The notes below the pieces were generated by a model. It saw only the letters and a program-made list of their open reading frames with translations. It was not told where the DNA came from and searched no databases. Made by a program: the position numbers and the translations under genes. A stretch of DNA of 52,962 bases from an uncultured Sphingomonas sp. (GTDB taxonomy: Bacteria > Pseudomonadota > Alphaproteobacteria > Sphingomonadales > Sphingomonadaceae): NCBI GenBank assembly GCA_913775025.1, contig CAJYJW010000161.1, positions 1 to 52,962 of the forward strand, given 5' to 3'. Shown in pieces: positions 14,205 through 42,814 of the stretch (its first letter is position 1; each line of letters starts with the position of its first letter).

Positions 14205-14654
14205 TCAACTATATTCCAGTTTGATACGCGTCAGCCGGGAGGCCGCGATCCGCCAGCGATCGCCCTCCTTCGCATAGCTGTCGGCATAATGGCCCCAACC
14301 GTGCATCCGGCCCGGCGGCAGGATGGCATGGCCTTCGGGGACCCACAGCCAGTCCTCCATCGACCAGACGGCCTCGGCCTCGGTCGCGGAGAGGATATCG
14401 ATGCGCGGCATATAGCCGAAGTGAGCGGTGGTGACGCCTGTCAGTACATGCGCCACGCCGGCGACGAACTCGGCTGCATCATGGTGCAACAGCGACGGAT
14501 TATGCGGTTGGACGGACTCCCGCATGTCCACGACCGGCGTGGGGATAAAGACGGCGGTGAGGTCTTCCCAATGCTGCCCGTCGACGCACCGGAAATATTC
14601 GGCCTTGCACCGTTTCACCCCTTCGATCGCAAGCAGGCGCTCAAGCGCATCCAT
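14205..14654 (-). CDS. NTF2-like (SnoaL-type) protein
   Basis: A 149-residue protein; ATG 14654 is preceded by AAGGAG. It has an N-terminal helix LLAIEGVKRCKAEYFRCVDG, then WEDLTAVFIPTPVVDMRES, then HDAAEFVAGVAHVL, a His-containing strand (TTAHFGYMPRIDIL) and a sheet ending DRWRIAASRLTRIKLEY. This length and the W-Y-x-E-D-x-x-R-like closing fit the SnoaL_4 group. Candidate polar pocket residues are the Asp of the VDMRES segment and the His of TAHFG. It lies between two SDR genes in the TonB-receptor operon, so a dehydration or isomerisation between two redox steps is a reasonable guess. Confidence 0.85.
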   Translation of the reverse strand: MDALERLLAIEGVKRCKAEYFRCVDGQHWEDLTAVFIPTPVVDMRESVQPHNPSLLHHDAAEFVAGVAHVLTGVTTAHFGYMPRIDILSATEAEAVWSMEDWLWVPEGHAILPPGRMHGWGHYADSYAKEGDRWRIAASRLTRIKLEYS

Positions 14655-14692
14655 ATCATTCTCCTTTTCTTGTATGTGTGTGGGCGGACAGA

Positions 14693-15439
14693 TCATCCGG
14701 CGGTCTGTCCGCCATCCACCGGAAAGGCTACGCCCGTGATCATGCGCGCTTCGGCCGATGCGAGAAAGGCGACGGCATCGGCGATGTCGTCTGGCTCCGC
14801 GTTCGCGCCGTCATCGAGCCAGCCTGTCGAGCGCATGACCTGCGTCCAATCCACGCCGGGCGCCGAGGGGGCGGAGATCAGCGGCGTGTTGACCCCGCCC
14901 GGGCACAGCGCGTTGATCCGTACGCCCTGCCTGGCGAATTCCAGGGCAAGTGCCTTCGTCAGGCCGACCACGCCATGCTTGGAGGCGACATAACCCGCGT
15001 TATAGGGCACGCCGACGAGCCCCGCCGCCGATGCCATGTTGACGATGCAGCCACGCGTGGCGACGAGATGCGGCATCGCCGCCTGGCTCATGAAGAAGAC
15101 GCCGCCCAGATTGATCGCGATCATCCGGCTCCAGCGATCTACCGTGATGTCGGCAAGCGGCGCCATATCGAGAACGCCTGCGATGTTGCAGAGGATATCC
15201 AGGCCGCCGTTCCGCCGCACCGCTTCCGCGACGATCGTGGCGCAGGCGGCGGGATCGGCGACATCCAGCGGCACGGCATAAGCAGACGCGCCGATCATGG
15301 CGGCGGTCTCGGCGAGACCGGCCATATTACGATCGCCGATGATGACATGCGCACCATCGCGGGCGAAGCGCTCGGCGACGGCTCTACCGATGCCGGAGGC
15401 GGCGCCGGTCACAATCACGCTCTTGCCCTCGAACCGCAT
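14693..15439 (-). CDS. SDR-family oxidoreductase
   Basis: A 248-residue classical SDR: TGAASGIG, D-R in IIGDRNM (NAD type), NIAG in place of NNAG, Ser in MASAAGL and YVASK. Its ATG at 15439 shares a base with the upstream stop codon (TGATG), so translation is coupled to the isomerase gene. A GTG at 15442 is an alternative. It is a probable alcohol dehydrogenase for a ring or side-chain hydroxyl in the TonB-receptor operon. Confidence 0.92.
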   Translation of the reverse strand: MRFEGKSVIVTGAASGIGRAVAERFARDGAHVIIGDRNMAGLAETAAMIGASAYAVPLDVADPAACATIVAEAVRRNGGLDILCNIAGVLDMAPLADITVDRWSRMIAINLGGVFFMSQAAMPHLVATRGCIVNMASAAGLVGVPYNAGYVASKHGVVGLTKALALEFARQGVRINALCPGGVNTPLISAPSAPGVDWTQVMRSTGWLDDGANAEPDDIADAVAFLASAEARMITGVAFPVDGGQTAG

Positions 15440-16269
15440 CACGCTTCTCCCATCATTTCGTCCAGCACCCGCAGCCGGGCGAGAAGGGTGGCTTCGCCGG
15501 CCACGCCCGGTACCATCGCTTCCAGCTCCACCTCGATCAGCCCGTCATATCCGCTCCGGCGAATCGCGATCAGGACGCTGCGCCAATCGATCGTACCGGC
15601 GCCGGGATCGATCCGGCCGGGAGCGTCGGCGATCTGGACGAGGCCGGGGGCGGGGCGGACGGATGCGGCGGGATCGTCCCCCGCGATAGCGATATGGCCG
15701 AGATCATAAGCGACGCGGATCGCGGGATGACCGGCGGCGGCGACGATCTCTTCCGCCTCGGCGATCCGGGTGACAAGCAAGCCGGGAATGAAAGCCTCCG
15801 CGACCGGCTCCACGCACAGGGTAAGCCCGGCGTCGGCCGCCATGCCGCCGAGCCGGGCCAGATTTGCCGCCATCATCGCGCGCTGATCCCGGCGGGAGCG
15901 GTCAGGATCGGCACCGGTCACGCAGGTGACGGTGTGACTGCCCGCCCGGCTGGCCGCGTTTCCTGCGTGCTCGATCAGGCGGGTCTGCGCATCGCGGCTC
16001 TCGCCGTCATCGCGGCTCCAGAGCGGCGTCGCCCAGCCGATCGGGTCGAGCGCGAAGCTGCCAACGTCCATTCCATGATCCGCCGCCAATGCGCCGAACG
16101 CCGCCTGCCGGTCGACATCCCGCAGCCCGAGAAAATTGTCGAACACGCCGGCAAAACCGTGCCGCGCCATCCAGCCGATCTGCTCCGCGAGCGAGTGCCC
16201 TGCCGAGGCCATGAACAGCGGCCTGTCGGGCGCGCGCACGCCCAGATGCCCGGCGAGGCGCAGCCGCAT
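15439..16269 (-). CDS. Sugar-phosphate isomerase/epimerase-type TIM barrel
   Basis: A 276-residue protein of the AP-endonuclease-2/xylose-isomerase-like superfamily, close to the hydroxypyruvate-isomerase type. Likely metal ligands lie in LCVEPV (Glu), VAYDLGHIA (Asp and His), PGRIDPGAG and the C-terminal LIEVELEA (Glu). Such enzymes isomerise or epimerise hydroxy-ketones with a divalent metal; in catabolic operons some act on non-sugar ketones. The start shares a base with the TonB-receptor stop (TGATG), and the stop shares a base with the next SDR start, so the three are tightly coupled. Confidence 0.82.
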   Translation of the reverse strand: MRLRLAGHLGVRAPDRPLFMASAGHSLAEQIGWMARHGFAGVFDNFLGLRDVDRQAAFGALAADHGMDVGSFALDPIGWATPLWSRDDGESRDAQTRLIEHAGNAASRAGSHTVTCVTGADPDRSRRDQRAMMAANLARLGGMAADAGLTLCVEPVAEAFIPGLLVTRIAEAEEIVAAAGHPAIRVAYDLGHIAIAGDDPAASVRPAPGLVQIADAPGRIDPGAGTIDWRSVLIAIRRSGYDGLIEVELEAMVPGVAGEATLLARLRVLDEMMGEA

Positions 16270-18681: not shown

Positions 18682-19149
18682 ATGATGTCGTTGCAGGAAA
18701 TGTCGGACCGGCTTGAGATCCAGGATCTTTTTGCCCGCTACACCTATGCGATCGATGATCGCGACTATGATGCGCTGGATGACGTTTTCACGCCGGACGC
18801 GGTGATCGACTATAGCGAAACCGGCGGCGAAAAGGGGGGCGTGGCGGAGATCAAGCGGTGGCTACCGGTGGCGATGGCCAAATTCCCGAAGTTTCAGCAC
18901 ATGGTGGCCACGACGCAGCTAAAGCTGTCCGGCGATACGGCGCGCAGCCGCACGATCCTGTTCAATCCGATGACCCATGCCGATGCCGAGGGCCACGAGC
19001 GGGTGTTCTTCATCGGCCTCTGGTATCGCGACGAATTGGTTCGTACGCCCGATGGCTGGCGCATCGCCTCCCGCTACGAGGAGATGGGCTATGCCTATAA
19101 CGTCCCCGCCGATATGGGGCCGGTCCCTCCGATCCCGCCAGCCGCATAG
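18682..19149 (+). CDS. NTF2-like (SnoaL-type) protein
   Basis: A 155-residue protein with GGAGAG upstream; ATG 18682 or 18685 may be used. N-terminal helices RLEIQDLFARYTYAIDDRDY are followed by DALDDVFTPDAVIDYSETGG, the standard D-x-x-x-x-x-F-x-x-D-A pattern, then the strand FQHMVATTQLKLSGDTARSR and a C-terminal sheet with DGWRIASRYEEMGY. It is a single gene divergent from the TonB-receptor operon, so the two are probably co-regulated. A Tyr/Asp-rich N-terminus (YTYAIDDRDY) is shared with many catabolic SnoaL proteins of this kind. Confidence 0.88.
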   Translation: MMSLQEMSDRLEIQDLFARYTYAIDDRDYDALDDVFTPDAVIDYSETGGEKGGVAEIKRWLPVAMAKFPKFQHMVATTQLKLSGDTARSRTILFNPMTHADAEGHERVFFIGLWYRDELVRTPDGWRIASRYEEMGYAYNVPADMGPVPPIPPAA

Positions 19150-19169: not shown

Positions 19170-19706
19170 TCAGGCCGCCTCGTCCCAATGGATGAGGTGG
19201 CTGATGTCGCGGCGCTCATGCGGTTTGCGACCCGCCTTGGCGAGGTGATGCGCGCTGATCTGCTCGTCCGGGCTCAGCGGACGGATCACTTCGATGATGC
19301 GGTCATATTCGGTATGCAGGATCTTCCACTGCCCGCCGTCCCGGCGATAGCGATCGCGGTAGATCGCCGAGCCGCTGGTATGCTTTTTCTCCGCCAGGTT
19401 GATCGCGATATCCTCAAGATACCAGATGCCGTCGGCGGTATCGTCTCCGGTAAAGGTGATCTCCGGCATATGGCCGTGATGCATGGCCACCAGATCGGAA
19501 TGGAAGCTGTTGGCGAGGAACTCGACCATATCGGCCCTGCCGGTCAGTCGCACGCGATAGGTGCCCCCGCGATAGTCCACCGTCAGGTCGTCGGCAAATA
19601 ACGAGTCGAGCAAGGCCACGTCAGCGGTATCGATACCTCTAAAATATCTATGCTTGAGCGTCCGAAGCTCTTCCAGATCAGACAGTTGTTGTAACGTATA
19701 GGCCAT
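19170..19706 (-). CDS. NTF2-like (SnoaL-type) protein
   Basis: A 178-residue protein. ATG 19706 is chosen over 19715 because GGAAGG is 9 nt before it and family starts read M-A-Y-T-L. It has the helix LSDLEELRTLKHRYFRGIDTAD, then LLDSLFADDLTVDYRGGTYR, helix MVEFLANSF, strands HHGHMPEITFTGDDTADGIWYLED and the closing WKILHTEYDRIIEVI. A C-terminal tail of about 30 residues (EQISAHHLAKAG onward) extends past the NTF2 fold. It follows the OYE gene by 33 nt in the same operon, suggesting it acts on the same intermediate. Confidence 0.88.
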   Translation of the reverse strand: MAYTLQQLSDLEELRTLKHRYFRGIDTADVALLDSLFADDLTVDYRGGTYRVRLTGRADMVEFLANSFHSDLVAMHHGHMPEITFTGDDTADGIWYLEDIAINLAEKKHTSGSAIYRDRYRRDGGQWKILHTEYDRIIEVIRPLSPDEQISAHHLAKAGRKPHERRDISHLIHWDEAA

Positions 19707-19739
19707 GAGGGGCATCCTTCCTTATATATATTGTTCGTT

Positions 19740-21996: not shown

Positions 21997-22488
21997 GTGC
22001 GTGCAGTGCAGATCAGGTCCGGGAGGACGCTTTCAGCCACTACGCTGGACGCACTCGACAACGGCATCATCGAGATGCTTCGGGTCAACGGCCGTGCCAC
22101 CAATCAGGAGATCGCGGAGCGACTTTCGGTCACTGCCGCGACCGTATCCTCGCGCCTGCGGCGGCTGGAGGAGATGGGGGCATCCCGTGTCGTCGCCGTC
22201 ACAGATTTCGCCGCGCACGGCTATAACGTCCTGATCGCGGTCGGCGTGAAGGTCGCCGGGCGGGAAGTGCAGGATGTCGCGCGCGATCTGGCCCGCCTGC
22301 CCGAGGTTTTCAGCGCCAATATCATGAACGGTGCGCAGGATATCGAAATGCTGGTCGCGCTCCACGATTTCTCGGAGATCAACCTGTTCCTGCTCGATCA
22401 TGTCGCGGGCATAGCGGGGGTTGATACCCTGTCGCCGGGGATCGCGGCCGATATCGTGAAGTTCGAATTCAACGTGGTGCCGCTGTGA
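21997..22488 (+). CDS. Lrp/AsnC-family regulator (first of a tandem pair)
   Basis: A 163-residue protein with a GTG start after GAGGGAG. The N-terminal helix-turn-helix is LDALDNGIIEMLRVNGRATN then QEIAERLSVTAATVSSRLRR; the C-terminal RAM-type alpha/beta ligand domain follows (VVAVTDFAAHGYNVLIAVG). Members bind amino acids or other small ligands and form octamers. Its stop overlaps the start of the next regulator by 4 nt (GTGA). Confidence 0.88.
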   Translation: MRAVQIRSGRTLSATTLDALDNGIIEMLRVNGRATNQEIAERLSVTAATVSSRLRRLEEMGASRVVAVTDFAAHGYNVLIAVGVKVAGREVQDVARDLARLPEVFSANIMNGAQDIEMLVALHDFSEINLFLLDHVAGIAGVDTLSPGIAADIVKFEFNVVPL

Positions 22489-22955
22489 ACGGTCCGCGTT
22501 TGGACGAGCTGGATCGCCGGATCATCGAGAAGCTTGGTCGTGACGCCCGCGTCTCGAACCGCCAGATCGCGGCCGAACTGAAGGTGACGGAGGGTACGAT
22601 CCGCAGCCGGATCAAGCGCCTGCAGGCCGAGCATCTGATCCAGTTCACCGTCGTCACGGACTTTCGCGTGGCGGGCTCGCCCAATCTGGTGATGATGGGC
22701 ATACAGGCCGATCCGAGCCGGGTGGGGGCACTCGCCAAGCAGCTTGCCGATATTCCCGAGATCAACTGCGTGATCGTGCTGCTCGGCCGCTACAGCCTGC
22801 TGGCGATGGGGCTGTTCACCAGCATAGAGCAACTGAACGCGCTGATCTTTGGGCGCATCCGCGTGCTGGAGGGCGTGCGGGACGTGGAAACGTCAATCTC
22901 CGTCCATAATGTGAAATATGAAGTCGGGGTTGCCCGCATTACCGCAAAGGAATGA
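22485..22955 (+). CDS. Lrp/AsnC-family regulator (second of a tandem pair)
   Basis: A 156-residue protein with GTG 22485 overlapping the previous stop by 4 nt. HTH: LDELDRRIIEKLGRDARVSN, RQIAAELKVTEGTIRSRIKR; then a RAM domain (IQFTVVTDFRVAGSPNLVMMG). It is a diverged paralogue of the first, with aligned HTH and domain order. The strict translational coupling suggests a hetero-oligomer. It converges with the TetR gene, 11 nt away. Confidence 0.88.
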   Translation: MNGPRLDELDRRIIEKLGRDARVSNRQIAAELKVTEGTIRSRIKRLQAEHLIQFTVVTDFRVAGSPNLVMMGIQADPSRVGALAKQLADIPEINCVIVLLGRYSLLAMGLFTSIEQLNALIFGRIRVLEGVRDVETSISVHNVKYEVGVARITAKE

Positions 22956-22966
22956 CGCCTGGTCGG

Positions 22967-23629
22967 TCATGAAGCGGCGGCGGGCGGCAGACCGAACCCG
23001 CCGGCGATGAAATCCACCAGCCGGCGCAGGAGCGCGACGCGATCGTCCGGTGCGCACGTGCCGTCCGACAGGATCGAGAGGCGTTCGTAATCGGCGCTCT
23101 GATTGTAGTGCAGCACGCCCAGCGCGAAGTGGAAGCGCCAGAGCAGATCCTCGCGCGGCATCGCCGGTAGCGCCAAGGCAAGGGCATCGACGAAGCGGCG
23201 CAGGTGACGCACGTCGGTACGGATGGTCTCTCGCACTTCCAGCGGGCCTTCGCTGCGGGCGCGGTTGAGGAAGCGCAGCGCGACACGTCGCTCGTCGCTG
23301 ATCCACAGCGTTGCCGGTTCCACCAGCGCGTGCAGAATGGCGCGCGCATCGCCCGGGCGTTCCTCCATCGCCACGCGCAGGAGCTGGCTTCGTTCACGGT
23401 TCAACTCCGTCGCGCGAACGCGGAATATCTCCAGAAGCAGGCGATGCTTGGTGCCGTAGTGATAATTGACCGCAGCGATGTTGACGCCGGCCTTGGCCAC
23501 GATGTCCCGCGTGGAGACGGCATCGAAACCCTGCTCACTCACCAGGGCTTCGGCCGCCTGGAAGATGCGCAGCTTCGCCCCCGCCTCGCTTGCGGGGTGC
23601 GTGTTCGGCTTAGTTGAAGGGTCGGACAT
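22967..23629 (-). CDS. TetR-family transcriptional regulator
   Basis: A 220-residue protein. The N-terminal HTH reads IFQAAEALVSEQGFDAVSTR then DIVAKAGVNIAAVNYHYGTK, the standard TetR pattern; the rest is an all-helical ligand domain with CxxxP-free TetR_C-like helices (RFHFALGVLHYNQSADYERL). ATG 23629 lies 86 nt from the start of the divergent beta-oxidation operon, so it most likely represses that operon until an acyl-CoA or related ligand binds (inference). Confidence 0.9.
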   Translation of the reverse strand: MSDPSTKPNTHPASEAGAKLRIFQAAEALVSEQGFDAVSTRDIVAKAGVNIAAVNYHYGTKHRLLLEIFRVRATELNRERSQLLRVAMEERPGDARAILHALVEPATLWISDERRVALRFLNRARSEGPLEVRETIRTDVRHLRRFVDALALALPAMPREDLLWRFHFALGVLHYNQSADYERLSILSDGTCAPDDRVALLRRLVDFIAGGFGLPPAAAS

Positions 23630-23715
23630 TCGGCGGGCCTCATCCACAGAACGCCATCTTGACACAAGCCCGCATCGCATGAAACAAGCGTTTGATACGG
23701 TAGTTGGGGGTGCTG

Positions 23716-24696
23716 GTGAGGGCGGTGTTTTGTGAGGCGTTCGCGCCCCTCGATGCTTTGACGGTGCAATATGTGCCCCCGCCGGCCCTTTTGCCGGGAT
23801 CGGTGTCGATCGATGTGCATGCAGCCGGGGTCAACTTTCCCGATGGCCTGATGGTACAGGGCAAATATCAGACCAAGCCGCCCCTGCCGTTCGTGCCCGG
23901 CGCAGAACTGGCCGGTATCGTCGCCGCGGTGGGCGAGGGGGTGACGACCCTTGCGCCCGGTGATCGTGTCGCCGCGTTCAGCGGCACCGGGGGGTTTGCG
24001 ACACAGGCGGTCGTGCCCGCCACGCAGGTATTTCGCCTGCCGGAGGGCGTGGACTTCATCACCGCTGCCGGGCTGCTCATCACCTACGGCACCTCCTACC
24101 ATGCACTGAACGATCGCGCGCGCCTGCGGGAAGGCGAGACGCTTCTGGTATTAGGTGCGGCGGGCGGGGTCGGGCTGGCCGCGGTGGAACTGGGTGCGCT
24201 GATGGGCGCGCGCGTCATCGCCGCCGCATCGAGCGACGCCAAGCTTGCCCTGGCGCGGGAGCGCGGCGCAAGCGCGACAATCCGCTATTCCGACGAGGAT
24301 CTGCGCGACCGGATCAAGACGCTGACGGACGGGCGCGGCATCGACGTGGTCTATGATCCGGTAGGCGGTGCCGCCAGCATCGCCGCGATCAAGGCGCTGG
24401 CCTGGGGTGGCCGCCACCTCGTGGTCGGTTTCGCCGGTGGGGAGATACCGAAGATACCAGCCAACCTGCTGCTGCTGAAAAGCGCCGCCTCGCTGGGCGT
24501 GCTGTGGGGCAATGCGTTGCGGGCCGATCCCGAGCATCACGCCGCCAACATCCAGGATCTGCTGGGGCATCTCGAAGCCGGTCGCATCCGTCCGGAGATC
24601 GATCGCGTCTTCCCGCTCGATCAGGCGGTGGCGGCGCTGGAACACGTCATGGAACGACGCGCGCGGGGCAAGGTGATCCTGTCGTTGCGCGACTGA
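23716..24696 (+). CDS. MDR-superfamily NADPH:quinone oxidoreductase-like
   Basis: A 326-residue zinc-free medium-chain reductase. GTG 23716 gives the usual start MRAVFCEAF; in-frame GTG 23710 and TTG 23704 are alternatives. The catalytic domain (FVPGAELAGIVAAVG) precedes the Rossmann motif LGAAGGVGLAAVEL and ends with the HVMERRARGKVIL segment typical of the quinone-reductase/enoyl-reductase branch. It may be an enone or enoyl-CoA reductase. It is the first gene of the beta-oxidation operon, divergent from TetR, 12 nt before the fused hydratase/dehydrogenase. Confidence 0.88.
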   Translation: MRAVFCEAFAPLDALTVQYVPPPALLPGSVSIDVHAAGVNFPDGLMVQGKYQTKPPLPFVPGAELAGIVAAVGEGVTTLAPGDRVAAFSGTGGFATQAVVPATQVFRLPEGVDFITAAGLLITYGTSYHALNDRARLREGETLLVLGAAGGVGLAAVELGALMGARVIAAASSDAKLALARERGASATIRYSDEDLRDRIKTLTDGRGIDVVYDPVGGAASIAAIKALAWGGRHLVVGFAGGEIPKIPANLLLLKSAASLGVLWGNALRADPEHHAANIQDLLGHLEAGRIRPEIDRVFPLDQAVAALEHVMERRARGKVILSLRD

Positions 24697-24708: not shown

Positions 24709-26793
24709 ATGGGCGAGATGGTAAGCTACGGGGTGAGTGGCGGCATCGCCGAAGTCGTGATCGATAACCCGCCGGTGAACGCAGCTTCCCACGGCGTGCG
24801 GGCCGGTCTGGCTTCTGCGCTCGCCCGGTTCGAAGGCGATGCCGAGGCGGGGGCACTCATCATACGTTGCGCGGGGCGCACTTTCGTGGCGGGGGCGGAC
24901 ATCAAGGAATTCGGCAAGCCTATGGCCGATCCGCAACTGCCCGATCTACTGAAGCGCTTCGATGCCGCCATCAAGCCGATCGTCGCCGCCGTGCATGGCA
25001 TGGTGCTGGGCGGCGGGTTCGAACTGGCGTTGGCATGCCATTATCGGATCGCGGATGCCAGGGCGCGCTTCGGCTTTCCGGAAGTAAGGCTGGGCCTGTT
25101 GCCGGGGGCCGGGGGCACGCAGCGCGTACCCCGCCTGGCGGGGCTACAGATCGCGATCGATATGATCACCGGCGGCGGGCAGATCGGCGCTGAGGCGGCG
25201 AAGCAAGCCGGATTGGTCGACATGGTAACGGATGGCGATCTGGCGGACGCCGCACGCGGCTTCGCGCGCGATCTGGTCGCTGCCGGCAAGGGCGCGCGAT
25301 CCGCGGCCGACCTGTCGATGCCGGCCGACGATCCGGCGTTGTTCGATGCGGCACGCAAGTCCGTCGCTCGCAAGATGCGCGGGCAGACAGCGCCGCTCAA
25401 GGCGCTGGAGGCGATCCGCCTCGGCTATGAGGGGGGGCCGTTCGATCAGGCGCTCGATCGCGAATATGCACTCTGTCGCGAGATGGTGACGGGTTCGCAA
25501 AGCCGCGCCCTGCGCCACATCTTCGCCGCCGAGCGGGAGGTGGCGAAGGTGCCGGGCCTGTCCGCCGACACGACCGCGCGTATGGTCGAGACGGCGGGCG
25601 TGATCGGTCTCGGGGTGATGGGGCGGGGCATCGTCATGGCGCTGGCCGCCGCGACCGTGCCGGTGATCGCCGTCGCGCTCGATCAGGCGCACCTTGATGC
25701 GGCGATGAAGGCGATCCGCGATACTTGGGCCGGGCAGGTGGCGAAGGGCAGCCTGACCCAAGCCGAGATGGACGCGCGCCTCGCCCGGATCACCGGCACC
25801 GTGGAGCCCGCTCGGCTGGTCGACGCCGATCTCGTCATCGAGGCGGTGAGCGAGGATATCGAACGCAAGCAGGCGGTCTTCGCAACGCTGGGGTCGGTAA
25901 CGAAGCCCGGTACGATCCTCGCCAGCAATACCTCGTTCCTTGACATTGATACGCTGGCCGATGCGTCCGGCAGGGCCGCCGACGTGTGCGGCATGCATTT
26001 CTTCAACCCAGCGCACATCATGCGGCTTCTGGAGAATGTGCGGACGACGCGCATCGCGCCCGATGCGGTCGCCACCATCATGGCGTTCGGCAAGCGCATC
26101 GGAAAGCTTGCTGTGCTGTCGGGCGTGTGCGATGGCTTCATCGTCAATCGCATGCTGTCCAAGCGCTCACGCGAGGCATTCTTCCTCGTGGAGGAAGGGG
26201 CGAGCCCGTCCGTCATCGACAAGGTGGTGCTGGATTACGGCTTTCCGATGGGGCCGCTGGCGCTCGGCGATCTGGCCGGGCTGGACATTCAGGCGGCGGC
26301 GCGCAAATCCCGCGCGGCAAAGGCCACCCCGCGCGAGCTGCGCGCTGACTTTGTCGAACAGATGGTGGCGGCGGGGCGGCTTGGCCAGAAAAGCGGCTCC
26401 GGCTGGTACGTCTATGACGAGAAGCGCAAGTCCAGTTCCAATCCCGAAACGGATGCCCTCGTTTCCGCCCATGCCAAGCGCCATGGCCTCGCCCTGCGGG
26501 AGATCGGAGCGGACGAGATACGGGAAAGGCTACTTTACGCCATGGTCAACGAAGGGGCTAGGCTGCTCGACGAAGGCGTCGCGCCGCGCCCGCATGACAT
26601 AGACATCGCCATGGTCAACGGACTTGGGTGGCCCGCCTATACCGGGGGGCCGATGTTCTGGGCCGACCAGATCGGGCTTGCGACCGTGCTCGCCACGATC
26701 GAGCGATTTCGGAAGGAGCAGGGGGACGCTTATTGGACGCCCTCGCCGCTGCTGGCTAGGCTGGCCGGGGAAGGCCGGGGATTCTACGCATGA
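24709..26793 (+). CDS. Bifunctional enoyl-CoA hydratase/3-hydroxyacyl-CoA dehydrogenase
   Basis: A 694-residue FadB/FadJ-type fusion. Residues 1-190: crotonase domain with oxyanion loop [10 protein letters not shown] and [15 protein letters not shown], and the two Glu of GFELA and [17 protein letters not shown]. Residues about 297-570: HADH Rossmann start [12 protein letters not shown], catalytic His in [12 protein letters not shown], and GFIVNRML; residues 580-690 form the second HADH C-domain. It would hydrate 2-enoyl-CoA and oxidise the 3-hydroxyacyl-CoA. No thiolase is in the window. Overlaps the acyl-CoA dehydrogenase start by 4 nt. Confidence 0.93.
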
Positions 26794-27995
26794 GCGGCCT
26801 CGATCCGAACCCCCGCACGCAAGATCTTCTGGCACGGCTGCGCGCCTTCATGGCCGAGCATATCTATCCGAACGACGCGCGTTATTATGCACAGGTAGCC
26901 GAAGGCGACCGCTGGGCGCCCGTGCCGCTGCTGGAGGAACTGAAGCCGCTGGCGAGGGCGGCTGGCCTCTGGAACCTTTTCCTGCCGGAGAGTGGCCGCG
27001 GTGCCGGCCTGACCAACCTCGAATATGCGCCCCTTTGCGAGGAAATGGGACGGGTGCACTGGTCGCCCGCGGTATTCAATTGCGCCGCGCCGGATACGGG
27101 CAATATGGAAACGCTGGAGCGTTTCGGCACGCCCGACCATAAGGCGCGCTGGCTGGAGCCGTTGCTTGAGGGCAGGATCCACTCGGCCTTCGCGATGACG
27201 GAGCCTGCGGTCGCCTCTTCGGATGCGACCAATATCGAAACCAGCATCGTCCGCGATGGCGACGATTACGTCATCAACGGGCGCAAATGGTGGATTTCGG
27301 GCATGGGCTCGGCCGATTGCGCGATCATGATCCTGCTGGGCAAGACCGATCCGACGGCGCCGAAGCATCGCCAGCAATCGATGATCCTCGTGCCGCGCGA
27401 TACGCCAGGCGTAACCGTGCTGCGGCCGCTCACGGTGCTGGGATATGATGATGCGCCGCATGGACACATGGAAATAATATTCGAGAATGTCCGCGTTCCC
27501 GTCGGCAATCTGCTGCTGGGGGAGGGGCGCGGGTTCGAGATCGCGCAGGCGCGGCTGGGGCCGGGTCGGATCCACCATTGCATGCGCATGATCGGCATGG
27601 CCGAACGCGCGCTGGAGGCGATGTGCCGGCGGGTGAAGGGCCGGGTCGCCTTCGGCAAGCCACTGGCCGAACAGGGCGTGATCGTGGAGCGCATCGCCAA
27701 CGCACGCATCATGATCGACCAGGCCCGCCTGCTGACGCTGCACGCCGCGCACCGTATGGACACGGTAGGCAACAAGGCCGCCCGCGCGGAAATCGCGATG
27801 ATCAAGGTCGTGGCCCCGTCGATGGCATGTCAGGTGATCGACTGGGCGATGCAGGCTCATGGGGGGCTGGGCATCAGCCAGGATACGTTCCTCGCCAACT
27901 ATTACGCCCATGCCCGCAAGATCCGCTTCGCCGATGGGCCGGATGAGGTGCACCGCCACCAGCTTGGCCGCCTTGAACTGGCGAAGCATGACTAA
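26790..27995 (+). CDS. Acyl-CoA dehydrogenase, ACAD10/11-like
   Basis: A 401-residue acyl-CoA dehydrogenase-fold flavoprotein: N-terminal helices, [15 protein letters not shown] (FAD/substrate loop) and the C-terminal domain with GGLGISQD. The usual catalytic Glu of Y-E-G-T is replaced by the motif ADGPDEVH (residues 381-388), with Asp382 at that position. This motif marks the ACAD10/ACAD11 and LvaC group, which acts on 4-phosphoacyl-CoA rather than doing plain dehydrogenation. It overlaps the kinase gene by 8 nt, so the two are coupled. It starts by ATGA overlap with the fused hydratase gene. Confidence 0.9.
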
Positions 27996-29034
27996 CGGCT
28001 TCGCGCTCGATCTGGCGAGGTTGGGAGCATGGCTGCGCGCGCATGTACCGGACGCATCGGGCATGCTTGCGGCGGAAAAATTTTCCGGCGGGCAATCGAA
28101 CCCGACCTATGCCCTCTCCCTGGATTGCGTGACCCGTTACGTGCTGCGTAAGAAGCCGCCGGGCGTGCTGCTTCCCTCCGCCCATGCCGTGGAGCGCGAA
28201 TATCGCGTGACGCGGGCGCTGCGTGACAGCGCGGTCCCGGTCGCGCGGCCGATCGCCCTGTGCGAGGACGCCGGCGTGATTGGCACGCCCTTCTTCATTA
28301 TGGACTATGCTGCGGGTCGTAATTTCTGGGATCCGCGCCTGCCGGGGCTGATGCCGATCGAGCGGGCGGCGATCTACGACGAGATGAACCGCGTGCTGGC
28401 GGAACTCCATCGGATCGATCCGGCTGCGGTGGGCCTTGCCGACTATGGCCGCCCGGGCGACTATTTCGGCCGTCAGGCCGCGCGGTGGACCAGGCAGTAT
28501 CGCGCGACGGAAACCTCGGTGATCCCGGCCATGGAGCGATTGATCGAGTGGCTGCCGCGCAACAATCCGGGTCGCGAGGAAAGCCGTATCGTCCATGGCG
28601 ACTATCGCAACGACAACCTCATCTTCTCGGCGGGAATGCCAAAAATCCGCGCGGTTTTGGATTGGGAGCTATCGACGCTCGGCGATCCGCTGGCCGATCT
28701 GGCGCAGCATGTGATGGCCTGGCGCCTGCCGCGTGAAGGCTTTCGCGGGCTGGCCGACATCGATCGCGCCACCCTCGGTATTCCCGATGAGGCGTGCTAT
28801 GTCGCCCTTTATTGCGAGCGAACCGGCATAGCCCCGCCCACGCCTGCAATGTGGGCCTATGCGCTGGCGTTCGCCCTGTTCCGCAATGCCGCCATACGCC
28901 AGGGTGTATTGCGGCGGGCGCGGGACGGTAATGCGTCCAGCGCGGCGGCGGCGGAGCACGGTGCGCGCGCTGAAAGAATCGCCGCGCTTGGCTGGCGCAT
29001 TGCGTCGGGGGAGCATGACGCGACACTGGCGTGA
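27988..29034 (+). CDS. APH-family kinase (hydroxyacyl-CoA kinase-like)
   Basis: A 348-residue aminoglycoside-phosphotransferase-fold kinase. ATG 27988 overlaps the previous stop by 8 nt. It has the nucleotide-loop [12 protein letters not shown], the catalytic H203-G-D205-YRNDN and the metal site [12 protein letters not shown]. Fusion partners of ACAD10/11 and the levulinate enzyme LvaA belong to this type and phosphorylate the 4-hydroxyl of 4-hydroxyacyl-CoA. The adjacency to an ADGPDEVH acyl-CoA dehydrogenase supports the same role here. Drug resistance is unlikely given the context. Confidence 0.85.
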
Positions 29035-29046
29035 GAGGAGAGCAGG

Positions 29047-29613
29047 ATGATCCGTATCGACGTTCCGGCCGAGCAGGCACACGATCCCTATCGCTATGCG
29101 GGCACGCACCATGCGCCTGAGATCATGAGAGCCGCAGGGGGCTTTTCGAAGGCGGTCTATACGCACAGCCGCCTGTCGCTGCGGGAGTTCGAAGGTGCGC
29201 GGGCACGAACGGCCGAGATCAACGGCTGCATCATCTGCCAGGCCTTTCGTGCCGCGCGCGATACGCCGGCGATGTTCGCCGCCAGCGGCACCCGCCCGCC
29301 GCATCTCGTCTCGGACAATGGCCCGGTCCCGGATGAGGCCTTTTACGCAGCGGTCGCGGACTGGCGTATCTCGCCGGTGTTCAGCGACCGCGAACGGCTG
29401 GCGATCGAATTCGCGGAACGATTCGCGGAGGAGCCGAAGGTGCTTGCCGCCGATGAAGGTTTCTGGAGCCGCGCCCATGCCGCCTTCGCCGATGGCGAGA
29501 TCGTGGATCTGGCGCACTGCGTTGCCTCATGGGTCGGTCTGGGCCGCGTCGCGCACGTCCTCGGCTTCGATACGGTGTGCCTGCCGTTCAATCAAAAAGC
29601 GGATGCGGCCTGA
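29047..29613 (+). CDS. Carboxymuconolactone decarboxylase/AhpD-family protein
   Basis: A 188-residue helical protein with C61 and C64 (GCIICQAF), the CxxC of AhpD-type redox members. It follows the kinase gene by 12 nt, with AGGAGAGCAGG upstream, and ends the beta-oxidation operon, convergent with an SDR 9 nt away. It may protect the flavin steps from peroxide or serve as a ring-opening lyase. It resembles the protein at 2826 only in fold and motif. Confidence 0.85.
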   Translation: MIRIDVPAEQAHDPYRYAGTHHAPEIMRAAGGFSKAVYTHSRLSLREFEGARARTAEINGCIICQAFRAARDTPAMFAASGTRPPHLVSDNGPVPDEAFYAAVADWRISPVFSDRERLAIEFAERFAEEPKVLAADEGFWSRAHAAFADGEIVDLAHCVASWVGLGRVAHVLGFDTVCLPFNQKADAA

Positions 29614-30416: not shown

Positions 30417-31043
30417 TCAACTCCTCACCCGTGGGCGCGGCAATGGCGCGCCCGCCCGCATCGTTTCGATGAACTTTTCCAGCGGCGCGGGCGTGGCGAC
30501 CGGCGCATCGTGCGGTTTCCCCTCGCGTGCCCAAAACGCTTTCCAGGATGGGAACAGGTCGTGGAAGCTGCCCTGATAAGGCGGCACGCCCGGCCAGCGC
30601 ATCTTGCGATCGCCGATCGGTGGCTTGTTGATGTCGCTCGCATACCAATAAAGCGGCAGCCGGCGGCGGAAGTACCAGCGGCCATCGTTGCGCTCATATT
30701 GATCGAAATACATCATTTGCATGATGACCCATTCGGGGCCCGTCTCATGCTCGTTCTTGGAATAGACGATGCCCTGGGCATGATCGGGATCATCGAATTC
30801 TATCACATGCCCGCCGATGTGGTGGGAGGTTCCATCGAATTGCATGCCCATCGTTTCGTCGAACCAGTCCCGCAACGCCTTGCGGCCTTGCTTGCCGCCG
30901 CCGACCTTCACGTCCTCCGGGAACAGGCCTACCCACGCATCCGAATCGCGCATGTCGAGCGCCAGCGAGTATTTCGCTACAAGCTGCCGGATCGCATCGA
31001 TCGATTCCAGCCGATCGATCCGCGCGGCAAGATCCATGGTCAT
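30417..31043 (-). CDS. NTF2-like (SnoaL_4-type) protein
   Basis: A 208-residue NTF2-like protein. ATG 31043 has GGAG 8 nt upstream. N-terminal helix LAARIDRLESIDAIRQLVAK, then YSLALDMRDSDAWVGLFPED (the D-x-x-x-W-x-x-L-F pattern), the His-rich strand GTSHHIGGHVIEFDDPDH, then WVIMQMMYFDQYERNDGRWYFRRR. The tail after about residue 140 is long (a Pro-rich part with WPGVPPYQGSF), more than in the smaller NTF2 members here. The residues HHIGGH could line a polar pocket. It sits directly before an SDR in the operon. Confidence 0.86.
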   Translation of the reverse strand: MTMDLAARIDRLESIDAIRQLVAKYSLALDMRDSDAWVGLFPEDVKVGGGKQGRKALRDWFDETMGMQFDGTSHHIGGHVIEFDDPDHAQGIVYSKNEHETGPEWVIMQMMYFDQYERNDGRWYFRRRLPLYWYASDINKPPIGDRKMRWPGVPPYQGSFHDLFPSWKAFWAREGKPHDAPVATPAPLEKFIETMRAGAPLPRPRVRS

Positions 31044-31142
31044 CGTATCTGCTCCGGATGGTCGAATGCCGGCCTGCACAGGGTCGCGGTGGCGATGGCC
31101 GGCATCCGATAGCCACAGTTCGTTGGTGTCATGACGGTCGCT

Positions 31143-32111
31143 TCATGTCCCGGCTCGGGGAGCCGCGGGGGAGCGGGTATCAGCAAGAAAGCGCAGCAGC
31201 GCATCCGCCAGCAGCATGCCCTGCTCCTCCTGCACGAAATGCCCCGCCGCCGGGATCACGGGGTGGGCGCAATCGGCGGCGCCCGGCACACGCCTGCGAA
31301 AGACCGGTGCCCATGCGGCGGTCGCGGGGTCGTTGTCGCTGAAGGCGGTGGCGAAAGGCTTGTTCCAGCGCGCCAGCACGTCCCAGGCGGCGCGATTCGC
31401 CGCCAGCCCTTCGGCTGCTTCGTCAACGGGAATGCCGCAGGTTATCTGCAACAGGCCCGCTTTATAGGCGGCCGTGGGGAAGGGCGCGTCGTAGCCTGCC
31501 AGTACAGCCGCCTCAGGACGGCGCAGCGACGCACCCGCCACAAGTTCACCCGCCGGTAGATCGCTGCTGATGCGGCAGGTTTCGATCCACGTCGCGATTC
31601 CCGTGCCCGGCCACCCTTCGATGCCACGCGGCGGCGGTTCGCAGTTCGGCAAGAGCGTGTTGGTAGCGAGCACAGCCGCGAAACGCTCTGCCCGTTCGGC
31701 CAGAACCCGCAACCCGATCGGACCGCCCCAATCCTGCGCCACGAGCACGATATCCCGCAGGCCGAGCGCGTCCACGAACGCGCCCATCCACGAGACGAAG
31801 CGATCGTAGGAATAGGCACCGCGGGAGGCTGGCTTGTCCGACTTGCCGAAACCGATCATGTCGGGTGCGATCACCCGCCATCCGGCATCGGCGACGGGCT
31901 GGATCATGTGACGGTAAAGGAAGCTCCACGTCGGATTGCCATGCAGCATCAGGACTACCGGCGCACCGCGCGGGCCCTCGTCAAGATAATGCATTTGCAG
32001 ATCGCCAAGCGAACCGCCGGGCACAGCCAGATAATGCGGCGCAAACGGATAGTCTGGCAAGGAGGCGAACCGCGCTTCGGGGGTGCGCAATACACCCGGT
32101 CGGATTTCCAT
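31143..32111 (-). CDS. Haloalkane dehalogenase-like alpha/beta hydrolase
   Basis: A 322-residue alpha/beta hydrolase with every catalytic residue of a subfamily-I haloalkane dehalogenase: nucleophile Asp127 in AQDWGG, halide-binding Trp128 and a cap-domain Trp175, acid Asp259 in AFSDNDP, base His291 in AGHFVQE and the oxyanion segment HGNPTW (Asn59, Trp62). Numbering is close to that of DhlA. Such enzymes swap C-X for C-OH through an ester on Asp. Some relatives are epoxide hydrolases or esterases, so halide use needs a test. It follows the sulfotransferase gene by 8 nt and precedes the NTF2-like gene by 99 nt. Confidence 0.85.
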   Translation of the reverse strand: MEIRPGVLRTPEARFASLPDYPFAPHYLAVPGGSLGDLQMHYLDEGPRGAPVVLMLHGNPTWSFLYRHMIQPVADAGWRVIAPDMIGFGKSDKPASRGAYSYDRFVSWMGAFVDALGLRDIVLVAQDWGGPIGLRVLAERAERFAAVLATNTLLPNCEPPPRGIEGWPGTGIATWIETCRISSDLPAGELVAGASLRRPEAAVLAGYDAPFPTAAYKAGLLQITCGIPVDEAAEGLAANRAAWDVLARWNKPFATAFSDNDPATAAWAPVFRRRVPGAADCAHPVIPAAGHFVQEEQGMLLADALLRFLADTRSPAAPRAGT

Positions 32112-32119
32112 CGCCTCGC

Positions 32120-33295
32120 CTAGCGAATGTAGCGCGCGCGATATTCGGCGAAGGCGGCTTCGATCTCCCCTTGATCCAGGCCGAACCGTTCGAGCGAATA
32201 GTCATGCATCGGCCGCTGTTCGCGCTGGTTGCCGGCAATGAACTCGGCCATGGCGGCATCGCTGCCGGCATCGACCGGCAGGCCCATCTTGCGAAGCACG
32301 CGCTGCGCCTGCTTCAGCGGATCTCGGGCGACATCGCGATAATCGATATCGACGAAGCGATCCTCGCCGATGCGCTCACGCGCCGCTTCGAACCGTTTCA
32401 TCCACGAAACAAGGCGCGGAAACCAGAAAGCGCCCACTTCCTTATCGGTCAACGTAGCGCCCAGCTTGTAGAGCGCGGCCTGCATGCTGACGTAGGACGG
32501 CACGGTCGCCAGCGGATCGCGATGCGTCATGATCAGCAACGCATCCGGAAACGCCTTGGCCGCCACCTCCGTGTAGGGCAGGTTGGAGGGGCTTTTCAGC
32601 ACCCATTTGGAGCCGCGCCGCGCCGGCTCCTGCCATTGCAGATAGGCGAGGATCGTTTTGAGATCCTCATGCCCCTTCGACTGGTCGTAACCGTCCAGCC
32701 AATAGGCGAAACCGGGCACGAACGTCATGCCTTCCACCATCGTGGAGACGAACATCTGGCCGAGGATCAATATCTCCTCGTCCGGCCCCTCGCGATCCAG
32801 CGGATGGATAGAGGTCAGTTCGGGCGCGGCCTCCAGCCAGCCTGCGATCATCGCATCTGCATAAGCCCGCCGTTCAGCCGGGTTGCCCGGCGTCTCGCCG
32901 GGGAAGGGCGCGTAATTCTGCGCCTCGAACCAGCGGATCGCGGTCATGCCCGGCGCGCTTGCCAGCAGGCGATGAAAGATGGTGCTGCCGGTCCGTGGCA
33001 GGCCCAGGATGATGCCGGCCACCTCTACCTTCTCGTCGAGGATCTCCGGATGACGCTTTATGTCATCGATCATGCGAAGGCGGCTGACGAGGCCCTTGAC
33101 GATCACCTCGGTCTGCGCGGCGATGCCGGCGGGCGTTAGCTTCGCCTCCCGGTTGGCGGACGCGATAAAGGCGTCCATCGGTTCGATGAACCAGGTATCG
33201 CCGAAGTCGCTAAGGCCGGCGCGATCGCGCGCCAGTTGCAGCAAAAGGTCACGATCGAAGGCGGGATTGTCGGTGGTCGCGGCGACGCTGGCCAT
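32120..33295 (-). CDS. Sulfotransferase-family protein
   Basis: A 391-residue PAPS-dependent sulfotransferase-fold protein. The 5' phosphosulfate loop is LGLPRTGST (about residue 98) and the 3'-phosphate segment is THRDPLATVPSYVS. The C-terminus has the long helix pattern DAAMAEFIAGNQREQR. Sphingomonads keep many such genes in degradation clusters; they may sulfate a hydroxyl or, less likely, act as hydrolases. AGGAGA precedes ATG 33295. It is the first gene of a leftward operon with the dehalogenase-like, NTF2-like and SDR genes. Confidence 0.9.
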   Translation of the reverse strand: MASVAATTDNPAFDRDLLLQLARDRAGLSDFGDTWFIEPMDAFIASANREAKLTPAGIAAQTEVIVKGLVSRLRMIDDIKRHPEILDEKVEVAGIILGLPRTGSTIFHRLLASAPGMTAIRWFEAQNYAPFPGETPGNPAERRAYADAMIAGWLEAAPELTSIHPLDREGPDEEILILGQMFVSTMVEGMTFVPGFAYWLDGYDQSKGHEDLKTILAYLQWQEPARRGSKWVLKSPSNLPYTEVAAKAFPDALLIMTHRDPLATVPSYVSMQAALYKLGATLTDKEVGAFWFPRLVSWMKRFEAARERIGEDRFVDIDYRDVARDPLKQAQRVLRKMGLPVDAGSDAAMAEFIAGNQREQRPMHDYSLERFGLDQGEIEAAFAEYRARYIR

Positions 33296-33386
33296 GTTTG
33301 CCTCTCCTGTTGGACCATCGTCTACGTAGCCAGAGCGTGCCTTGCAATACGCCGATGACTATATTCATACCAATCGTAACGTCATA

Positions 33387-33393
33387 TGCGTAG
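33387..33393 (+). promoter_or_regulatory. TGCGTAG element, divergent spacer 33296-33441
   Basis: Copy 1 of a 7-nt motif recurring in the spacers of the 33-46 kb region. It lies between the sulfotransferase start (33295) and the NTF2-like gene start (33442). Function as an operator is inferred. Confidence 0.4.
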
Positions 33394-33441
33394 ACGAGTA
33401 AGGTTGATGAGCCTATTTTGAGGGCGAGCAGGGAGACGGCC

Positions 33442-33960
33442 ATGACGGATCGGACCATCGAGCAGCGACTGGCCACGCTTGAGGACGTGCGCGCGGTGGA
33501 GGCGTTGAAGTGGCGCTATCTGCGCGCCTGCGATCGCAAGCAGCCGGACGCGGTGCGCGCCTGCTTCACCGATGATGCGGTGATCGACTTCGAAGGCTTT
33601 CCGCTATTCACCGATGCCGACAGTTTCGTGGCGATATACCGGCAATATGGGTGCGTCCCCAACATCGTCGATATGCATCACGGCCAGAACCCGATCGTCG
33701 AGATCGATGGCGACACCGCCAAGGGTTGGTTCGATCTGTATTTTTTCCAGATGGACACGCAATCGAAGCGGCTGACCCAACTCGCCGTCAGCTATGACGA
33801 CGATTTCGTCCGCCGCGATGGCCGCTGGCTGATCGCCCGCACGGTCAGCCGGCGCCTTTCCATGTTGGTCAGCGAGATCGGCGAGGATGCGGTAGCGCGC
33901 GTCCTCATGGCCGCCCGCTCCGATATCGAAGGCCCCGCAGCGCCGCCACGCCAGGCCTGA
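33442..33960 (+). CDS. NTF2-like (SnoaL-type) protein
   Basis: A 172-residue protein; ATG 33442 follows GGGAG, while the longer frame begins with TTG and lacks an RBS. The helix RLATLEDVRAVEALKWRYLR, then ACDRKQPDAVRACFTDDAVI (D-A-V-x-x-x-F-x-x-D-A), a pocket segment VDMHHGQNPIVEIDGD and the sheet KGWFDLYFFQMD, ending DGRWLIARTVSRRLSM. The VDMHHGQ His pair recalls other catabolic SnoaL proteins (HHGHMPEI at 19170). It is convergent with the KstD-like flavoprotein and divergent from the sulfotransferase operon. Confidence 0.88.
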   Translation: MTDRTIEQRLATLEDVRAVEALKWRYLRACDRKQPDAVRACFTDDAVIDFEGFPLFTDADSFVAIYRQYGCVPNIVDMHHGQNPIVEIDGDTAKGWFDLYFFQMDTQSKRLTQLAVSYDDDFVRRDGRWLIARTVSRRLSMLVSEIGEDAVARVLMAARSDIEGPAAPPRQA

Positions 33961-42670: not shown

Positions 42671-42700
42671 CCGGCACGTGCCGGTGCAGCATTGCGCAAA

Positions 42701-42707
42701 TGCGTAG
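42701..42707 (+). promoter_or_regulatory. TGCGTAG element, spacer 42671-42814
   Basis: Copy 4, 108 nt before the BVMO start. The nearby TATGCC follows it. Operator function is inferred. Confidence 0.4.
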
Positions 42708-42814
42708 AGATATGCCAATGGGGACGCCGTAATCGAAAAGTTGCGCGGTTCGCCGGCCACGATCGATCACGGGCGGATGCAGCCGGTATCATATCTTCAA
42801 GGGCAAGGATCATC

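Follow-up and report, generated by a model that had tools for sequence, protein, structure and literature searches.

The 52,962-nucleotide stretch of DNA analysed here (the window; contig CAJYJW010000161.1 of assembly GCA_913775025.1, from an uncultured Sphingomonas sp.) carries an operon in which genes for a quinone-oxidoreductase-type enzyme (QOR), an enoyl-CoA hydratase/3-hydroxyacyl-CoA dehydrogenase fusion (ECH/HAD), an acyl-CoA dehydrogenase (ACAD) and an APH-fold kinase follow one another. The operon very likely provides a two-enzyme entry of 4-hydroxyacyl-CoAs into beta-oxidation. The enzyme type is already known; its setting is a conserved four-gene unit, seen in part by a preliminary description of this DNA, and we report the gene order, family membership, residues, phylogeny and conservation of that unit.

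The ECH/HAD fusion, a FadB/FadJ-like alpha subunit (24709-26793, + strand; Pfam ECH_1, 3HCDH_N and 3HCDH), overlaps the ACAD gene (26790-27995, +) by 4 nt, and the ACAD gene overlaps the kinase gene (27988-29034, +; Pfam APH, E 6.6e-53) by 8 nt. The longest open reading frame (ORF) of the kinase opens at 27859, and the ATG at 27988 yields the 8-nt overlap with the ACAD end at 27995; read from this ATG, the kinase aligns with its relatives starting at residue 3-8, and the annotated genes of Sphingobium herbicidovorans have the same overlaps (8 nt between ACAD and kinase, 4 nt between fusion and ACAD). The preliminary description had given all three ORFs, the 8-nt overlap and the motifs ADGPDEVH (ACAD) and HGDYRNDN (kinase) as they are found here. 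It did not include the first gene, from which the operon starts earlier than had been noted, namely QOR (NAD(P)H:quinone-oxidoreductase-type MDR enzyme; 23704-24696, +, exact start uncertain; Pfam ADH_N/ADH_zinc_N; 245.5 bits against TIGR02824, under the cut-off of 296.8), nor a small gene trailing the kinase (29047-29613, +); gaps of 12 nt separate QOR from the fusion and the kinase from the small gene. The codon-position G+C of the ORFs is that of typical coding sequence and the window ACAD is 69-92% identical to the ACADs of the 80 named loci that were kept, so that the gene set is not a chance pattern.

Sequence comparison strongly supports the assignment of the dehydrogenase to the ACAD10/11-LvaC type, and it could act as a 4-phosphoacyl-CoA phosphate-eliminating isomerase. 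Its best Protein Data Bank (PDB) matches were mouse ACAD11 (8v3u, E 1.2e-142; 57% identity), human ACAD11 (2wbi, 1e-137) and 4hr3 (7e-135), with another mouse ACAD11 mutant (8v3v, in which D753 reads Asn) also among the top matches, and the next entry, another acyl-CoA dehydrogenase, followed at E 3.1e-46. The available text of PMC12440821 names R626, the HCMR motif (H634, R637) and the catalytic D753 as the special residues of mouse ACAD11 and reports HCMR to be essential. All of them have counterparts in the window ACAD: R255 for the proposed phosphate-stabilising R626 (A254 and R255 at 27549-27554, positions derived from residue numbers), H263, C264, M265 and R266 for HCMR (27576-27587, H634-R637 by alignment), and D382, the Asp of ADGPDEVH, for D753 (27933-27935), where ordinary ACADs have Glu. 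Among rows of at least 70% identity 58 of 59 kept this set of Arg, HCMR and Asp, and among those at 50-70% 68 of 69 did; in both remaining rows only the Cys of HCMR is altered. Below 50% identity the set occurred in 3 of 34 rows, all of them one gene of the window's own genome under three locus ids (some genes enter these counts twice, under two locus ids). All four ordinary ACADs examined from the window's own genome lacked the set, and two of them have Glu aligned at the catalytic position.

A quick maximum-likelihood tree of 101 ACAD rows (96 different) placed the window ACAD with mouse ACAD11 and 4hr3, split from the ordinary ACADs of its own genome with an SH-aLRT support of 99. The tree took every third of loci L085-L129, left out part of the duplicate loci, and dropped rows shorter than 340 aa as well as rows below 50% identity from outside the window's own genome; both this tree and that of the kinase are quick trees without bootstrap and with long branches flagged, and the ACAD tree holds neither LvaC nor ACAD10. 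Grouping with ordinary acyl-CoA dehydrogenases, which the preliminary description had named as evidence against its ACAD10/11 assignment, was not seen, and the ACAD10/11-type identity that it proposed for the pair is borne out by the PDB matches, the active-site residues and the trees. We rejected the reading as an ordinary ACAD on the Asp/HCMR active site, the best PDB relative being ACAD11, and the tree placement.

The kinase matched 3dxp (E 6e-113), the kinase domain of mouse ACAD11 (1e-70; 45% identity) and 9o56 (1.6e-43) in the PDB; for both proteins of the pair, similarity to structures already solved is enough to fix the fold. Its D205, N210, R70 and R162 correspond to mouse D220, N225, R86 and R176, that is, the catalytic Asp, the Asn five residues on and the CoA-contacting Arg residues; the catalytic loop D205...N210 lies at 28600-28617 by alignment, and the equivalences of R86 and R176 were read by eye from the kinase alignment. 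Equivalents of R86, E87, R176, D220 and N225 were present in 85/85 rows of at least 45% identity, again with some genes counted twice. On these sequence features the kinase is a candidate LvaA/ACAD11-type 4-hydroxyacyl-CoA kinase, and the pair is very probably a bacterial counterpart of the human ACAD10/ACAD11 enzymes, whose phosphorylation of 4-hydroxy fatty acids opens these to breakdown for energy. Several related plasmid genes are annotated as 'aminoglycoside phosphotransferase', and weak NCBIfam APH matches could likewise suggest that an ordinary acyl-CoA dehydrogenase happens to adjoin an APH kinase with no relation to it, for instance one that modifies antibiotics. This is extremely improbable, given that the nearest relatives of the kinase are 3dxp and the kinase domain of ACAD11, that the ACAD has the Asp/HCMR site and groups with ACAD11, and that the two genes are co-inherited in the conserved unit. 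The NCBIfam APH(3') model scored 32.3 bits against a cut-off of 205, so that the annotation on the plasmid genes is misleading. As a candidate, the antibiotic-type APH kinase is refuted as far as sequence can refute it, by this score and the PDB matches, and the present analysis corrects annotations that name such kinases aminoglycoside phosphotransferases.

Elsewhere in the same genome, contig C122 (995-3276; L134) carries a second kinase, 52% identical to that of the window, beside a divergent ACAD that is 35-37% identical to the window ACAD, has the same R/HCMR/D signature and has ACAD11 as its best solved relative (E 1.6e-53). Of 147 genomes of the order, 16 have matches to this divergent ACAD, counting the window's own, and by coordinates some of these matches adjoin a kinase match (e.g. 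in G119 and G146); at most 12 candidates per genome were scored in this search and in one further genome search. By sequence it is possibly a second branch of the ACAD10/11 type. A third ACAD10/11-type gene (C266:12393-13496; 59-60% identity) is cut by the contig end, and there was no kinase match in the 10.5 kb of that contig that were read.

According to the available text of PMC11342911 and PMC12440821, phosphorylation by the kinase domain of ACAD10/11 takes place at the 4-hydroxyl of 4-hydroxyacyl-CoA, and from the resulting 4-phosphoacyl-CoA the ACAD domain forms 2-enoyl-CoA as the main product, which is partly hydrated to 3-hydroxyacyl-CoA, an outside electron acceptor not being needed. 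FAD is proposed to accept and then give back a hydride (PMC12440821), and the same chemistry is reported for a Burkholderia pair (PMC11342911). The preliminary description, which had the 4-hydroxyacyl-CoA rearranged to a 3-hydroxyacyl-CoA, needs correction on this point. The reactions of the window proteins are inferred from these tested homologues. The kinase would phosphorylate the 4-hydroxyl of a CoA thioester using ATP; in the ACAD, Asp382 would act as the base and FAD as a temporary hydride holder while phosphate is expelled, the leaving phosphate being held by Arg255, His263 and Arg266, to give 2-enoyl-CoA with no net oxidation. The ECH/HAD fusion would take 2-enoyl-CoA to 3-hydroxyacyl-CoA and on to 3-ketoacyl-CoA, with thiolysis and CoA activation presumably supplied from elsewhere in the genome, and the QOR-type enzyme probably acts on the same substrate by reducing the double bond of an enone or enoyl group. 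The fusion has the motifs GGGFELA, FPEVRLG, HFFNP and LLENV, which we take to be the usual catalytic motifs of its two domains, and since they are kept it could carry the enoyl-CoA to 3-ketoacyl-CoA. The coupling to the neighbouring hydratase/3-hydroxyacyl-CoA dehydrogenase that the preliminary description had suggested is supported by this retention.

The order QOR-ECH/HAD-ACAD-kinase (the cassette) was found in sphingomonads and their plasmids. Eight of the 80 named loci had ECH/HAD directly upstream of the ACAD and a kinase at most 100 bp downstream, and these were the most similar of the 80 (ACAD identity 76-92%), belonging to Sphingomonas jatrophae, Sphingobium estronivorans, S. quisquiliarum, Croceicoccus estronivorus, S. 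formosensis and three metagenome bins. QOR lay directly upstream of the fusion in L050-L054, L057 and both plasmids read (L130, L131), and the contigs of cassette loci L055 and L056 end before the QOR position. Among 333 records with any match to the 5.3-kb query, 12 plasmid records covered at least 80% of it, namely S. herbicidovorans pMSHV and plasmids of eleven Sphingobium 'Tom' strains. The cassette members formed a clade of 10 sphingomonad rows (the window gene twice) in the ACAD tree and one of 9 rows in the kinase tree (67 rows, 62 different, thinned like the ACAD tree, with rows shorter than 300 aa dropped), both with a support of 99, indicating that kinase and ACAD move together as one unit. 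The ACAD clade next in size (13 rows, support 96) also takes in L063, a locus with QOR and ECH/HAD but no kinase. Literature searches, judged from titles and abstracts and with subscription journals mostly not covered, found no study of this cassette.

Outside the cassette clade the pair is common but in other arrangements, the kinase preceding the ACAD in 40 of the 80 named loci (28 within 100 bp, 11 within 1 kb and 1 within 3 kb). Over all 80 named loci, 52 had a kinase of at least 40% identity on the same strand within 1 kb of the ACAD. Across the order, 104 kinase matches occurred in 96 of 147 genomes, 55 of them within 2 kb and on the same strand of an ACAD match; the gap was 1-2 kb in 41 of these 55 pairs, and the two gaps read contain a zinc-type alcohol dehydrogenase, named from sequence.

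Several observations weigh against the proposed entry of 4-hydroxyacyl-CoAs into beta-oxidation. The linkage of kinase and ACAD is not constant, because 25 of the 80 named loci lacked a kinase (10 of the 80 being short on one side), and of the 104 kinase matches 30 had no ACAD match on their contig and 19 had one at a greater distance or in another orientation. A Pfam scan of 50 window proteins, which left aside a few small ORFs, revealed neither a CoA ligase nor a thiolase. Moreover, the substrate of the cassette may differ, because Ala replaces a near-universal Gly beside the phosphate Arg: ACAD A254, directly before Arg255, occurred in 10/11 cassette rows and 1/110 others, with Gly in 109/110.

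Further positions set the cassette apart, namely ACAD K377, five residues before the catalytic Asp (11/11 cassette rows versus 2/110), F112 (11/11 versus 1/110) and R322 (10/11 versus 6/110), as well as ten positions of the kinase; in these row counts, too, some genes appear under two locus ids. These substitutions may reflect a different substrate, or only shared descent. They raise the possibility, on the unlikely side, that the pair applies the same logic of phosphorylation and phosphate elimination to an alcohol that is hindered or sits at another place, for example a gamma-hydroxyacyl-CoA from part of a terpenoid or steroid with the hydroxyl tertiary or on a ring. Surroundings rich in ketosteroid-dehydrogenase (KSTD)-like, GMC, OYE, SDR and SnoaL genes are in line with this, as is the occurrence of cassettes in two species named for estrone use (names only). 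Nevertheless, the tested catalytic and phosphate-binding residues are unchanged, and substitutions alone are no proof of a new substrate. More tentatively still, the cassette could be a specialised ACAD10/11 branch, marked by A254 and K377, for taking a gamma-hydroxyl off CoA-bound pieces of cyclic terpenoids or steroids; if so, phosphorylation and elimination would be a step in the degradation of polycyclic natural products by sphingomonads, beyond the use of fatty or levulinic acid.

The neighbourhood of the cassette is partly conserved. GMC, KSTD-like, sulfotransferase-family, haloalkane-dehalogenase-like, OYE and SDR genes are kept with it in S. jatrophae, together with SnoaL, TonB-receptor and sugar-phosphate-isomerase-like genes, and parts of these surroundings recur in S. 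herbicidovorans and TomTYG73, there with a P450, a small ferredoxin-like gene and a methylmalonyl-CoA-mutase set. With their ketosteroid-dehydrogenase-like, GMC, OYE, SDR, SnoaL and monooxygenase genes, the surroundings fit a cyclic terpenoid-/isoprenoid- or steroid-like compound whose hydroxyl would come to stand at C4, either directly or once the chain is shortened. The edc estrogen cluster was considered as the home of the pair and rejected, as the words 'phosphotransferase' and 'kinase' have 0 occurrences in the available main text of the edc paper (PMC7793797), so that the strain names are the sole pointer to estrogen use. Likewise 'phosphotransferase' and 'acyl-CoA' have 0 occurrences in the available text of the tomatine paper (PMC10653915), from which, with the strain names, we infer that the Sphingobium 'Tom' strains are tomato-root isolates.

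The preliminary description had also proposed that a lactone from Baeyer-Villiger monooxygenase (BVMO) chemistry is opened to a 4-hydroxy acid and enters this operon, making a complete route from lactone to beta-oxidation in one locus. The window does hold a true type I BVMO (42692-44407) with the fingerprint FRGEIYHTTEW, matching phenylacetone monooxygenase (E 2.6e-165) and steroid monooxygenase (1.8e-154), and two alpha/beta hydrolases of the window could open a lactone. The gene lies, however, 13.7 kb downstream of the kinase, beyond opposite-strand genes. Most window genes recur in the same order in S. jatrophae, with inserted stretches, and there the BVMO is missing between its two kept neighbours (mfs41462 and sdr44921), which are adjoined by a second luciferase-like monooxygenase; its presence in the window and absence in S. 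jatrophae between the same neighbours is a gain or a loss. Nor was there any BVMO match at E <= 1e-5 in the 33-45 kb around the cassette of seven further organisms (S. estronivorans, C. estronivorus, S. quisquiliarum, bin AER3_10, S. formosensis, S. herbicidovorans and TomTYG73). Another BVMO-type gene of the S. jatrophae region (702 aa, fingerprint FRGRIVHPSKW) speaks for the lactone route, but it is only 31% identical (tblastn) and about 52 kb from the kinase; in genome G144, a kinase-ACAD pair that belongs to another subgroup and is differently arranged has an FMO-like gene, without the BVMO fingerprint, at a distance of about 2.5 kb. With these two genes as the contrary evidence, we rejected the BVMO as a part of the cassette on conservation.

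Baeyer-Villiger oxidation of an n-carbon ring ketone puts the hydroxyl at position n, so that 4-hydroxy acids arise directly only from cyclobutanones, while the 6-hydroxy acid from a cyclohexanone would become a 4-hydroxy acid after one round of beta-oxidation. A remark on hydroxyls at even carbons in the available text of PMC12440821 fits such shortening from 6-hydroxy to 4-hydroxy. A luciferase-like monooxygenase of the window (7150-8313) has kept counterparts in S. jatrophae (88%) and TomTYG73 (71%), and Baeyer-Villiger oxidation of progesterone is described for two enzymes of Caenibius tardaugens, a BVMO and a luciferase-like one (PMC12239570, available text). Since luciferase-like enzymes can be Baeyer-Villiger catalysts, this kept gene makes a stronger candidate for a conserved oxygenation step than the BVMO does, and either chemistry may feed the cassette. 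The complete route in one locus is not supported, with the BVMO distant and not conserved with the cassette and with no ligase or thiolase seen in the 50 window proteins scanned, and we regard it as improbable.

Among the remaining features, a TetR-family gene (22967-23680, - strand; Pfam TetR_N/TetR_C_30) is divergent from the cassette and likely its regulator; a TetR gene divergent to QOR was also present in S. jatrophae (78%), C. estronivorus (63%) and S. formosensis (53%) and was not seen in the remaining cassette loci. Two overlapping tandem Lrp/AsnC-type regulators (21997-22955) are each 94% identical to those of S. jatrophae, above most nearby enzymes. The small gene at 29047-29613, an optional last gene of the operon, encodes a peroxidase-related-like protein with weak NCBIfam matches only and no match in the Pfam scan; it follows the kinase in S. 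jatrophae too (87%) and lies elsewhere in the C. estronivorus stretch (73%). The window holds strikingly many SnoaL_4 proteins, five in all (14208-14696, 18682-19146, 19173-19715, 30420-31079 and 33418-33957), which are perhaps isomerases or hydratases of a polycyclic pathway. A sugar-phosphate-isomerase-like TIM-barrel gene (15442-16269; 74% in S. jatrophae) has relatives of 41-45% identity downstream of the kinase in L051, L052, L053, L056, L130 and L131. On the two plasmids read, genes for methylmalonyl-CoA-mutase-like large and small subunits with MeaB come after the cassette, behind the P450 (L130, pMSHV, 30502-33616; L131, 28704-31818), which may form a branched acyl-CoA mutase acting in the same pathway.

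The chemistry of mammalian ACAD10/11 was described in papers of 2024 and 2025, and its natural uses in bacteria are largely unmapped. The locus described here is a compact version, plasmid-borne too, in which separate kinase and ACAD genes share one operon with the next two beta-oxidation activities. It therefore lends itself to direct tests of the substrate range, of the flavin 'rebound' mechanism and of what the residue next to the phosphate Arg does.

The closest bacterial solved structures, 4hr3 (a putative acyl-CoA dehydrogenase) and 3dxp, give no function in their entry names, and 3dxp, deposited as a putative acyl-CoA dehydrogenase, is by sequence an APH-type kinase. The LvaA/LvaC orthologues of Burkholderia pseudomallei are a bacterial pair shown to convert 4-hydroxyhexanoyl-CoA (PMC11342911, available text); at 19 Burkholderia/Paraburkholderia loci the kinase is 55-57% and the ACAD 70-71% identical to those of the window, the comparison being with these loci rather than with the tested proteins themselves, and in one example (L076) the kinase precedes the ACAD and no ECH/HAD of at least 40% identity lies directly upstream. 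Pseudomonas LvaA/LvaC (PP_2791, PP_2793), compared by their description in the available text of PMC6692424, PMC11342911 and PMC12440821, likewise have separate kinase and ACAD genes in one operon and the same proposed chemistry. As described there, the lva operon also has LvaB, the SDR LvaD, the CoA ligase LvaE and the sigma-54-type regulator LvaR. The window differs from this, as the 50 proteins scanned include no CoA ligase (LvaB was not searched by sequence) and SDR genes are near the cassette but on other transcripts; the cassette instead has QOR, the ECH/HAD fusion and a TetR regulator. With mammalian ACAD10/ACAD11 (8v3u, 8v3v and 2wbi being ACAD11), the window pair shares a kinase with equivalents of D220, N225, R86 and R176 and an ACAD with the catalytic Asp, HCMR and the upstream Arg, but the mammalian enzyme is a single polypeptide with the kinase first, whereas the window has two genes with the ACAD first, in an operon with the next beta-oxidation enzymes.

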